Source of the DNA: Thermoplasmata archaeon
GTDB taxonomy: Archaea; Thermoplasmatota; Thermoplasmata; Lutacidiplasmatales; UBA184
Direction of reading: 5' to 3'
DNA: 36,731 nucleotides
Assembly (NCBI GenBank): GCA_022750435.1
Contig: JAKIVS010000006.1
Span: 1-36,731, forward strand
In this document: one piece after another, positions 5,198 through 32,883 of the stretch
How positions within the stretch are numbered: the stretch's first letter is position 1
Layout of the letters: every line of letters starts with the position of its first letter
Notes under the pieces: generated by a model
Database searches by the model: none
Seen by the model: only the letters and a program-made list of their open reading frames with translations
What the model was told of the DNA's origin: nothing
Made by a program: the position numbers and the translations under genes

Positions 5198-6157
5198 CTA
5201 ACCGGGGGCCGGGGGGGCGTCCCCGGATGGGGCGGTCGAAGGGGGCTTCCGCCAGCTCGCGGGGTAGTCGGCCGCGTCGGCGACGACGCGCTCGGCATCG
5301 ACCACCCAGCCGTGGCGGTGCTTCCCCGTCTCAGAAGAGTCGACAAGGGCCCGCCCGAGGGCGATCAGGAGTCCGGAGCGGGAGACGAGGACCACGCGCT
5401 GCCCGGCCGTGAAGGCCCGCGTCACCCGGTCGATCCCGCCGCTGGCGAGGTCGGCCCCGTGCGCGATGGCGGCCGCCGCGGAGTCCCTCAGCACGACCTG
5501 CGGGAACTCCTGCCAGACCTCCTCCATCGGACGGAGGATCGCGAGCAGGCTCGCCGGGTCGCCTGCGCGGGCCCGCGTGACCCCGTCGGAGAGTTGGGCG
5601 AGGGTGACGAGGTCCGATTCAGAGAACGGACCCGTCCCGGTCCGACGCAGTTCTTCCAGATGACCGCCGACGCCGAGGGCGTCGCCGAGGTCGACGGCGA
5701 GGGTCCGGATGTAGGTCCCTGAGTCGCCGACGACGTCGAGCAGCAGCCGAGTCCCGGATCGCTCGACGAGGTCGAGGCGGTGGATCGTCCGGATCCGGCG
5801 CTCGCGCTTGACGGCGGATCGGACGGGTGGGGTCTGGAACACTGGCCCCTTGAACTCGGTCAGGGCGACCCGGACCGCGGCGTCCGTCGCCTCCCCGTGG
5901 AGGGTCATGTCGGCGATGTACCGCTTGGTGAACTGGAGCGTCAGTGGGAGCAGCTTGAGGGCCGGGCCGAGTCCGATCCAGAGGACGCCCGAAACGTTCG
6001 GGTCGAGGGTGCCGGCGTGGCCGGCCCGCTCGACCCCGAGGAGGTCGCGCGCCCAGGCGGTGACCTGGTGGGACGACGGACCGCGGGGTTTGTCGATGAG
6101 GATGAAGGCGCCGTGCGCGATCCGCTCCGCGACGGGACCGCCGATCGGTTCGCCCAT
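5198..6157 (-). CDS. cbf5: tRNA/rRNA pseudouridine synthase Cbf5 (TruB family)
   Basis: A 319-aa pseudouridine synthase and catalytic subunit of the archaeal H/ACA ribonucleoprotein, which also modifies U55 of tRNA without a guide. The N-terminal IDKPRGPSSHQV motif, the catalytic motif GHAGTLDPNVSGVL with Asp52, and GDSGTYIRTLAVDLG are present. The C-terminal part from about residue 228 (FPQVVLRDSAAAAIAHG onward) is a PUA RNA-binding domain, which is what separates Cbf5 from short bacterial TruB. A Pro/Ser-rich tail ends the protein. It starts 2 nt after the cmk stop and is the last gene of the secY-DUF106-cmk-cbf5 segment. The same cmk-cbf5 association occurs in other archaea. Confidence 0.93.
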   Translation of the reverse strand: MGEPIGGPVAERIAHGAFILIDKPRGPSSHQVTAWARDLLGVERAGHAGTLDPNVSGVLWIGLGPALKLLPLTLQFTKRYIADMTLHGEATDAAVRVALTEFKGPVFQTPPVRSAVKRERRIRTIHRLDLVERSGTRLLLDVVGDSGTYIRTLAVDLGDALGVGGHLEELRRTGTGPFSESDLVTLAQLSDGVTRARAGDPASLLAILRPMEEVWQEFPQVVLRDSAAAAIAHGADLASGGIDRVTRAFTAGQRVVLVSRSGLLIALGRALVDSSETGKHRHGWVVDAERVVADAADYPASWRKPPSTAPSGDAPPAPG

Positions 6158-12070: not shown

Positions 12071-12661
12071 CTACTCCTCCTTCTCGCGGACGATCGGGTT
12101 GAGCACGTGGAGGCCGAGCTGGCGGGCCGCCTCCTCGAGGACGAGCCGCCGGCGGGTGCCGACGGTCCGGGCGATCAGGACGGCGTCGCGCTTCGGGTCG
12201 AGCGTGGAGAGGACGTCGGGGGTGCGGACGAGGACCGGGCGGAAGCCCGTCGGCGTGAGGCCCCGGGTCGCCCTCGGCGAGCCGAAGCCGATCGAGACGA
12301 CCGTCGGCCGGTAGCCGTAATGGCGGCGCTGCTTCGATTGCTGGCCCCGCGGGCGTCGCCAGGACTCCCAGCGCCCGATCCGGAAGTACCGGTGGGACGC
12401 CGTGCGGACGAACTTGGGGCGGCGGACGTCGGTGTCGTCACGGACCGAGAGGAGGCGGGCGAGCTCGGGCTCGAGCGTCGGGCGGCGCGGCGCCTTCGGG
12501 GCCGCCTTCTTCGCTGGCTTGGCCGGCTTCTCGGGCGTCGCCGGCGCGCTCTTCGCCCGTCCGTCGGACTTCTTCGGCGTCGGGGTGGTCCCCGATTCCT
12601 TCGACTTCGTGGGGGTCTCCGGCTCCGCGTCCGCGGTCGCCTTCGTCTCGTCGGCCGCCAT
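12071..12661 (-). CDS. rpl32e: Large-subunit ribosomal protein eL32 with a long N-terminal extension
   Basis: A 196-aa protein specific to archaea and eukaryotes. The core from about residue 78 contains RPKFVRTASHRYFRIGRW, GYRPTVVSIGFGSPRATRGL, SGF-like PTGFRPVLVRTP, and a C-terminal segment around IVREKEE. Residues 1-60 form a low-complexity extension that is acidic at first (Asp/Glu/Thr) and then rich in Lys, Pro and Ala. Similar extensions occur in some archaeal eL32 but vary widely. The start ATG 12661 shares one base with the rpl6 stop (TGATG). Confidence 0.95.
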   Translation of the reverse strand: MAADETKATADAEPETPTKSKESGTTPTPKKSDGRAKSAPATPEKPAKPAKKAAPKAPRRPTLEPELARLLSVRDDTDVRRPKFVRTASHRYFRIGRWESWRRPRGQQSKQRRHYGYRPTVVSIGFGSPRATRGLTPTGFRPVLVRTPDVLSTLDPKRDAVLIARTVGTRRRLVLEEAARQLGLHVLNPIVREKEE

Positions 12662-24854: not shown

Positions 24855-24960
24855 GGGCCTGTAGCTTAGCTCGGACGAAGCACTGGCCTTCTAAGCCAGC
24901 AAACTCGGGTTCAAAGGCGCCGGCGGACCTGCGCCGACGCGGAGAGTCCCGACAGGCCCG
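24855..24960 (+). tRNA. tRNA-Arg (anticodon UCU) with a 31-nt intron in the T loop
   Basis: The 75-nt mature cloverleaf is complete. The acceptor stem GGGCCTG pairs with CAGGCCC (7 bp), the D stem GCTT with AAGC, and the anticodon stem CTGGC with GCCAG around loop CTTCTAA (UCU at 24890-24892). The variable loop is CAAAC. The T stem TCGGG pairs with CCCGA, and G73 is the discriminator. CCA is not encoded. The T loop is interrupted after TTCAAA (positions 54-59) and resumes with T60 at 24947. There is no intron at the common 37/38 site. The TATA box 26 bp upstream supports an active gene that reads AGA codons. Confidence 0.9.
24916..24946 (+). other. tRNA-Arg intron, bulge-helix-bulge type, between positions 59 and 60
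   Basis: 31 nt. Folding by eye gives bulge AAG (cut after the second base), an intron stem GCGCCGGCG/CGCCGACGC with one C.A mismatch and a 6-nt loop, a central 4-nt helix TTCA/GGAG (three pairs if G.U counts, plus A.G), and bulge AGT (cut after the second base). The flanking outer helix is the T stem GGG/CCC. Removal leaves the T loop TTCAAAT. This is the substrate layout of the archaeal tRNA splicing endonuclease. Confidence 0.82.
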
Positions 24961-32781: not shown

Positions 32782-32883
32782 TGGACCGGGCGAGAATTCC
32801 CGGACCCGGCGATGCCGGGCCCCTTTGAACTCGCGGCCTCTACCTTGCCAAGGTAGCGATCTTCCGGACTGATCTACCGGCCC
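32782..32883 (-). tRNA. tRNA-Ala (anticodon GGC) with a 28-nt intron in the T loop
   Basis: The 74-nt mature cloverleaf is complete on the minus strand. The acceptor stem GGGCCGG pairs with CCGGTCC, including the G3.U70 pair that is the alanine identity element. The D stem is GATC/GATC, and the anticodon stem CTACC/GGTAG encloses loop TTGGCAA (GGC at 32849-32847). The variable loop is AGGCC, the T stem GCGAG/CTCGC, and A73 is the discriminator. CCA is not encoded. The T loop is split after TTCAAA (54-59) and resumes with T60 at 32795, the same site as in tRNA-Arg in this window. No intron is present at 37/38. Confidence 0.92.
32796..32823 (-). other. tRNA-Ala intron, bulge-helix-bulge type, between positions 59 and 60
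   Basis: 28 nt. By eye it folds as bulge AAG, a 9-bp intron stem GGGCCCGGC/GCCGGGTCC with loop ATC, a central helix TTCA/GGGA (three of four pairs counting G.U), and bulge ATT, with the T stem GAG/CTC outside. Each bulge is cut after its second base, leaving T loop TTCAAAT. The element order and lengths match the tRNA-Arg intron except for a shorter hairpin loop. Confidence 0.85.

Follow-up and report, generated by a model that had tools for sequence, protein, structure and literature searches.

Predicted T-loop introns between positions 59 and 60 in tRNA genes of a Thermoplasmata archaeon and of other Thermoplasmatota

Two split tRNA genes and the predicted introns of their genome

The stretch of DNA analysed here, called the window, comprises 36,731 nucleotides (nt) at the start of contig 13 of a G+C-rich metagenome-assembled genome (MAG) of a Thermoplasmata archaeon (GCA_022750435.1; 1.92 Mb in 28 contigs, 84% complete). 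The G+C content of the window is 70.7%, and the HMG-CoA synthase of the genome is 88% identical to that of Thermoplasmata MAGs. Two tRNA genes, for tRNA-Ala(GGC) and tRNA-Arg(TCT), are located in the window, and each is interrupted in its T-loop at the identical site, between A59 and T60, by an insert of 28 nt in tRNA-Ala and 31 nt in tRNA-Arg (Table 1). In tRNA-Ala, the acceptor stem GGGCCGG/CCGGTCC and the T-stem GCGAG/CTCGC enclose a T-loop that reads TTCAAA, is broken by the insert and resumes with T60; the 3′ part of tRNA-Arg reads TCGGG TTCAAA, followed by the insert and by T60 CCCGA CAGGCCC G. An earlier note on this DNA had described both tRNAs as split after TTCAAA and resuming at T60, which the sequence confirms, and had read each insert as one nucleotide, a nine-nucleotide arm, a loop, a second nine-nucleotide arm, a four-nucleotide central strand and two final nucleotides. 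That layout fits both inserts, as 1+9+3+9+4+2 for Ala, with nine of nine arm pairs when G-U is allowed, and as 1+9+6+9+4+2 for Arg, with eight of nine; in both, the fourth pair of the central helix is a non-standard A57-G. Because this is the general geometry of bulge-helix-bulge (BHB) introns, it is no additional evidence of kinship between the two, and a relationship argued from the common architecture was rejected.

Judged from sequence, both inserts are probably BHB introns at the non-canonical position 59/60 that would be cut by the splicing endonuclease; we put the probability of this reading at roughly 0.86. It is supported by the site, the restored cloverleaf, the conservation of the exons, the covariation of the hairpin and the distribution. 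An intron-aware scanner, which requires GTTC[A/G]A and the 59/60 site and overlooks genes whose D-loop holds an intron, detects these two genes and no others in the window at a score of at least 30 (scores of 41 for Ala and 40 for Arg). In 40 Markov reshuffles of the window (1.47 Mb), counting matches that lack an anticodon intron, one match reaches 30 and none reaches 34. ARAGORN and the Rfam tRNA model recognise a single tRNA each in the window; they overlook tRNA-Ala and end tRNA-Arg inside its insert, so tRNA counts made with them would come out too low in such genomes. The computed fold supports the hairpin together with the T-stem, with a z-score of −4.98 for Ala (0 of 200 shuffles as good) and of −1.90 for Arg (11 of 200).

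Over the whole genome, the Rfam model RF00005 gave 36 matches at E-values up to 10, each of which was read individually, and three further genes came from R1, a model based solely on Ala, Arg(TCT) and Asn tRNAs with T-loop introns, genes having a four-base variable loop being left aside. In the R1 search 150 of 2740 candidates were scored, and weaker genes may be missed; a tRNA complement of about 46 is expected, so some genes must be missing among the 39 found. Lys(TTT), Leu(TAG), Arg(GCG) and the initiator Met were read by eye, and the 59/60 T-arms then checked against the pattern. Twenty of the 39 genes are intronless and 19 carry introns. Four have an intron at 37/38 (Met, Tyr, Leu TAA and Trp), two in the D-loop only (Arg GCG and an initiator Met-like gene), 11 at 59/60 only (Ala GGC, Arg TCT, Arg TCG, Asn GTT, Asp GTC, Gln CTG, Glu CTC, Gly TCC, His GTG, Ser GCT and Ser GGA) and two in the D-loop and at 59/60 together (Leu TAG and Lys TTT). 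The 59/60 site thereby accounts for 13 of the 21 introns of the genome. Removing the insert restores the pairing of the T-stem and acceptor stem, and completes the cloverleaf, in all 13 genes with a 59/60 insert. No second, intronless copy of any of the 13 split isoacceptors is present among the 39 genes found in this 84% complete genome.

The suspicion that the two window introns are not a coincidence thus holds: 11 further tRNA genes of the genome are split at 59/60, and in a genome of the same genus (G017) at least 13 tRNA genes are, namely those for Ala GGC, Arg TCT, Arg TCG, Asn, Asp, Gln CTG, Glu CTC, Gly TCC, Ser GCT, Ser GGA, Ser CGA, Leu TAG and Lys TTT. Coincidence between two genes was rejected on this account. 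Tabulating intron positions throughout the genome, as had been proposed, gives 13 isoacceptors at 59/60 and four at 37/38. The suggestion that T-loop introns are the rule is not supported as worded, since 20 of 39 tRNA genes are intronless and four are split at 37/38; 59/60 is the main intron site.

Table 1. Coordinates of the two split tRNA genes, their predicted introns and the Cbf5-like gene in the window
Feature	Position	Strand	Remark
tRNA-Arg(TCT) gene	24855–24960	+	
5′ exon, positions 1–59	24855–24915	+	
59/60 T-loop intron	24916–24946	+	31 nt
intron nucleotide 1	24916	+	
first hairpin arm	24917–24925	+	
hairpin loop	24926–24931	+	
second hairpin arm	24932–24940	+	
central strand	24941–24944	+	
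last two intron nucleotides	24945–24946	+	
3′ exon	24947–24960	+	T60 to discriminator G73
tRNA-Ala(GGC) gene	32782–32883	−	
5′ exon, positions 1–59	32824–32883	−	
59/60 T-loop intron	32796–32823	−	28 nt
intron nucleotide 1	32823	−	
first hairpin arm	32822–32814	−	
hairpin loop	32813–32811	−	
second hairpin arm	32810–32802	−	
central strand	32801–32798	−	
last two intron nucleotides	32797–32796	−	
3′ exon	32782–32795	−	T60 to discriminator A73; CCA not encoded
Cbf5/TruB-like pseudouridine synthase	5198–6157	−	domain matches: TruB_N, TruB_C_2, PUA

Two other kinds of insert were seen in the same genome. Hairpin inserts are present in the D-loops of four tRNA genes (loci L124, L029, L125 for Leu TAG and L200 for Lys TTT); read by eye, the conserved GG stretch appears to serve them as TTCR serves the T-loop inserts. 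The tRNA-Trp gene (L126:435–593, on G000:C6) contains a long anticodon-loop insert, 87 nt by the scanner, with box-C/D-like stretches, which we take to resemble that of archaeal pre-tRNA-Trp.

Conservation, covariation and distribution of the inserts

Among 80 loci of relatives, the scanner finds 28 Ala(GGC) genes, 27 of them with a 59/60 insert, the sole exception being that of a distant relative (L094). Sixteen Arg(TCT) genes are found, 15 of them with the insert; the remaining one (L053) is intronless, though the Ala gene there has an intron. A further scanner match with a score of 36 and two large introns (L047) was dropped as spurious. Over the 48 positions compared, exon identity is 99.0% for 30 distinct split Ala genes and 100% for 17 Arg genes, and the T-arm is one single sequence within each set. 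The 5′ hairpin arms, by comparison, have a mean identity of 52% in Ala and 58% in Arg. Each arm nevertheless pairs with its own partner, in 232 of 270 positions for Ala and in 139 of 153 for Arg, where the best of 20,000 permutations of arms between orthologues reaches 194 and 126, respectively. In neither set (n=30 and n=17) does any of the 20,000 permutations reach the observed pairing, a result uncorrected for shared ancestry. Changes in the hairpin among orthologues are many and two-sided; outside the central helix, the intron hairpin is selected for pairing while its sequence drifts.

The exon and the insert also covary. In 66 genes, base 57 covaries with the intron base located six from the 3′ end of the intron: the combinations are A57-G (50 genes), G57-C (10), A57-T (3) and A-A, A-C and G-A (one each), and a Fisher test on the G and C partners of base 57 gives p of about 1e-10, again with shared ancestry uncorrected. 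In 56 of the 66 genes, the sequence allows no placement of the insert other than 59/60. Insert lengths and central pairs were compared between 89 distinct genes from the own family and near relatives (score of at least 37, no anticodon intron; loci of relatives that bear no family label are included) and 43 inserts from outside the own family, some of them obtained via named records and likewise unlabelled. Inserts measure 27–35 nt in the former and 15–42 nt in the latter. In the 43 inserts the combination at base 57 is G57-C in 27, A57-T in seven, G57-A in six, A57-G in two and A57-A in one, and all four central pairs are standard in 33.

Several observations weigh against reading the inserts as BHB introns at 59/60. 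Among the 89 genes from the own family and near relatives, 67 have the non-standard A57-G as their fourth central pair and only 13 have four standard pairs, so most motifs there are not textbook BHBs; the motif of the tRNA-Gly(TCC) gene of this genome contains a T54-C mismatch in addition. In the computed folds, the central helix of Ala appears in the centroid alone and that of Arg in a shifted register, and the minimum-energy folds do not show this helix in the register expected. The insert can slide by one base in 10 of the 66 genes, the scanner is restricted to 59/60 and cannot exclude introns elsewhere in the T-loop, and both the permutation and Fisher tests ignore shared ancestry.

The conserved G of the A57-G pair (67 of 89 genes, compared with two of 43 elsewhere) suggests a preference of the endonuclease in the own family; going by the sequences, the pair may be either an adaptation or merely tolerated. 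The intron of the elongator Met gene of this genome appears, by eye, to hold an A-G at the same place.

Within the class, 109 of 200 genomes have a match to R1 at an E-value up to 1e-11, and the matches listed extend over at least 92 bases. A scan of the phylum gave matches at E-values up to 1e-10 in 106 of 292 genomes, some of them of about 73 bases and hence intronless. A 59/60 insert is present in 20 of 20 regions examined outside the own family (17 by the scanner, three by eye and pattern) and in 16 of 16 further regions from other classes; because the regions outside the own family were picked for a long match, they show the breadth of the distribution and not its frequency. In all, 59/60 inserts were found in 18 families of the phylum, inside the class in f1, f2, f5, f6, f8, f9, f11, f13, f23, f25, f28, f29 and f30, and outside it in f32, f46, f49, f55 and f62. 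In two near-complete genomes of family f19 (G061 and G078), no T-loop intron was seen among 25 matches each at E-values up to 1. Each has one match of near 100 bases, which in G061 is a tRNA-Tyr with a 37/38 intron. For 30 genomes reached via named records, counted on the best match alone, 22 have a 59/60 insert, probably one more does (L275, whose T-loop is unusual), and in seven that match is an intronless gene. By their record titles, the carriers include Candidatus Methanoplasma glyptotermitis, Candidatus Methanomicula labiotermitis, Methanomassiliicoccaceae archaeon COG_1 and Methanomassiliicoccales archaeon RumEn M1. The insert of COG_1 lies in its Arg(TCT) gene (L268) and measures 24 nt.

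Nine loci outside the genome were read by eye (L234, L249, L252, L269, L270, L275, L276, L278 and L301). Lys(TTT) genes with inserts in both the D-loop and the T-loop were seen in distant genomes at L234, L249, L252, L269, L270, L276 and L278; the one at L276 (record RBG_16_67_27) seemingly has a third insert, in the anticodon loop. At L275, in the genome of the Sysuiplasma superficiale record L099, a Lys(TTT) gene with TCCGAA in place of TTCGAA contains a 15-nt 59/60 insert and a D-loop insert.

Proposed splicing and the endonuclease

In the precursor, the exon bases T54-T55-C56-R57 would pair with the four intron bases that precede the last two, forming the central helix, on which the outer intron hairpin would stack. 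A58, A59 and the first intron nucleotide would then make up the 5′ bulge, and T60 with the two intron bases before it the 3′ bulge. The splicing endonuclease would cut within both bulges and the exons would be ligated, presumably by RtcB. As this geometry engages T54, T55 and C56 in pairs with the intron, we infer that the T-loop would fold, and be modified, only after splicing. In the genes counted, the exon contributes TTCA or TTCG to the central helix, as the scanner requires, and TTCR is nearly universal in elongator tRNAs; 59/60 would for this reason be a portable landing site, where an intron ending in roughly [G/C/T]GAA plus two bases may suffice for almost any tRNA and the hairpin would be free to drift as long as it remains paired. 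Cleavage would be plausible for an enzyme of this type, because the homodimeric EndA of Ferroplasma, also of the Thermoplasmata, is reported to cut minimal BHB substrates and BHB introns placed in hairpin loops (PMC8707768).

The EndA of the genome is encoded in a single frame with two PF01974 repeats. In a reading of 353 residues, for which the start codon was chosen, the second repeat contains GFKYG, VHARY and VRKD, which we take to hold the catalytic Y/H/K triad. The protein can be aligned with the alpha-prime-2 enzyme of A. fulgidus (PDB entries 1R0V and 2GJW) and with the M. jannaschii enzyme; ranked by E-value, its top match in the PDB is 5X89, an EndA-like chain in which two repeats match. 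In a comparison with these two enzymes, the stretch before the conserved SLLEA, presumably the place of the CSL/ASL added loop in broad-specificity enzymes, is one residue longer than in M. jannaschii (1A79) and four longer than in A. fulgidus (1R0V). By its sequence, the endonuclease looks to be of the alpha-prime-2 type. Members of the EndA family are present in 36 of 41 relatives. Among 12 chosen genomes EndA is found in 10, and in nine there are two matches in one frame, counting G265, whose second repeat match lies below the family cut-off (E-value 9.9e-4); G061, of family f19, has a single repeat match. No EndA family match was found in G299 and G413 of these 12 genomes, though both carry 59/60 inserts.

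Reviews describe the alpha-prime-2 endonuclease as narrow in specificity (PMC6379350, PMC12397907), one of them, from 2019, with reference to the alpha-prime-2 enzyme of T. acidophilum (PMC6379350). In a 2014 review, Korarchaeum, with its special-loop enzyme, is given as the only archaeon combining an alpha2 enzyme with non-canonical introns (PMC4033280). The accepted picture ties tRNA introns at odd positions to broad-specificity splicing endonucleases. A lineage with an enzyme that appears to be alpha-prime-2 and with 59/60 as its main site makes this coevolution model directly testable and, if the reading is true, non-canonical introns would have needed no broad-specificity enzyme to spread.

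Known systems, rival explanations and origin

The feature is real and conserved and probably of the ordinary BHB kind; what is unexpected is the lineage that carries it and the apparent type of its enzyme. The published non-canonical archaeal tRNA intron sites include 59/60 (PMC4090602), and introns there have so far been described mainly from other archaeal branches. The published non-canonical introns are likewise BHB-type hairpins and can accompany other introns in one gene (PMC4090602); compared with these, and with similar ones in PMC8450103, the introns described here have 59/60 as their main site, belong to the Thermoplasmata and extend through the phylum. In the Thermoproteales intron transposition reported by Fujishima et al. 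in 2010, as described in PMC4090602 and PMC4033280, many isoacceptors also have introns at the same kind of site, but those introns are very similar between tRNAs, whereas the resemblance between introns here does not clearly exceed that of shuffled sequences. The permuted tRNAs of Thermofilum pendens are joined at the same T-loop point, 59/60 (PMC3218864); here the gene order is normal and the intron is in cis. A 31-nt T-arm intron, of similar size, is known from the tRNA-Sec of Lokiarchaeota (PMC9499178), where it affects one special tRNA and not 13 ordinary ones. The Asgard Atabeyarchaeia and Freyarchaeia also contain many non-canonical introns outside Crenarchaeota (PMC11291895); in these, 92–95% of the tRNA genes are split, over half of them several times, while here 19 of 39 are, mostly once and with a concentration at 59/60. 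The word intron is absent from the main text of the Lutacidiplasmatales paper (PMC9287336), and in the Methanomassiliicoccales genome paper a group II intron is the only intron mentioned. Among open-licence papers we found no published description of T-loop introns in Thermoplasmatota, although some of them may already be recorded in supplementary tables or databases.

That the inserts are retained, as T-loop expansions of the mature tRNA or as marks of dead genes, is extremely improbable. It would agree with the failure of ARAGORN and Rfam to recognise tRNA-Ala, but a T-loop insert of 28–35 nt would prevent the contact between T-loop and D-loop, the exons are 99–100% conserved with the 3′ halves of the T-stems intact, the split genes are the only copies found of 13 isoacceptors, and the insert keeps its internal pairing despite changes in sequence; the idea was rejected on this conservation and covariation. 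The pairing of T54, T55 and C56 to the intron before splicing, expected from the geometry, might also make the introns a checkpoint by which T-loop modification is held back until splicing. This is very unlikely, with 20 of the 39 tRNAs found being wholly intronless. The responsible enzyme is moreover more likely Pus10, the usual archaeal U54/U55 enzyme, which is present in the genome (407 bits, cut-off 200), than Cbf5. The earlier note had drawn a link to the Cbf5 gene of the window, which finds no support: Cbf5 sits among ribosomal-protein, SecY and nucleotide-kinase-like genes, so that a shared window says little, and a role for it was rejected in view of Pus10.

A hypothesis from the literature on tRNA genes in pieces holds that splitting protects the integrase attachment site in the 3′ part of a tRNA gene. 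Six genomes of the family have 14 integrase-domain matches; with one strong match per genome (128–136 bits) left out, at least two of the remaining eight lie, among the matches listed, 3′ of a tRNA gene, in each case an intronless one. One integrase (G000 C6:103197–103640) is 189 bases from an intronless Ala(TGC) at 103829–103902; the other (G012 C57:12897–13409), whose frame has two stops, is 491 bases from an intronless Gly(CCC) at 12335–12406. These are two cases only, no second copy of the 3′ end of tRNA-Ala(TGC) occurs within 19.3 kb on the integrase side, and 20 of the 39 genes would remain unprotected, which makes it unlikely that the T-loop introns are kept for this purpose. The introns may be old and inherited, an ancestral Thermoplasmatota set with many losses and without repeated gain, for which the chances are appreciable but somewhat short of even. 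The nearly identical sets of host tRNAs in this genome and G017 favour such inheritance, as does the recurrence of Lys(TTT) with D-loop and T-loop introns in distant families of the class. Outside the own family, however, the best-scoring host differs by family, being Arg(TCT) in f5 and f8, Lys(CTT) in f11, f13, f23 and f30, Ala(CGC) in f2, a CAT tRNA in f25 and f28 and Lys(TTT) in f6 and f9, although shared hosts were perhaps overlooked, since most genomes were represented by a single gene and R1 derives from Ala, Arg and Asn. The intronless Arg(TCT) of L053, beside a split Ala, also speaks against inheritance.

Less likely than not, and put forward tentatively, is that T-loop introns throughout the phylum recolonise tRNA genes via T54-T55-C56-R57, which varies as little as any part of a tRNA, that a narrow alpha-prime-2 enzyme suffices for this and that the enzyme of the own family has adapted to A57-G; the gain of introns would then be repeated. 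The spread of one intron type, as the earlier note had suggested, is compatible with hosts that differ between families, but the similarity between introns of different tRNAs within the genome is not clearly above shuffles: the best pair scores 27, a value reached by 5 of 100 shuffles, and transposition inside this genome was rejected for that reason. In genome G336, of family f32, the 18-nt 59/60 introns of Arg(TCT) and Arg(CCT) (loci L287 and L288) are alike in 16 positions. Their host tRNAs are likewise similar, and the likeness of the introns may reflect either gene duplication or a recent transfer of the intron.
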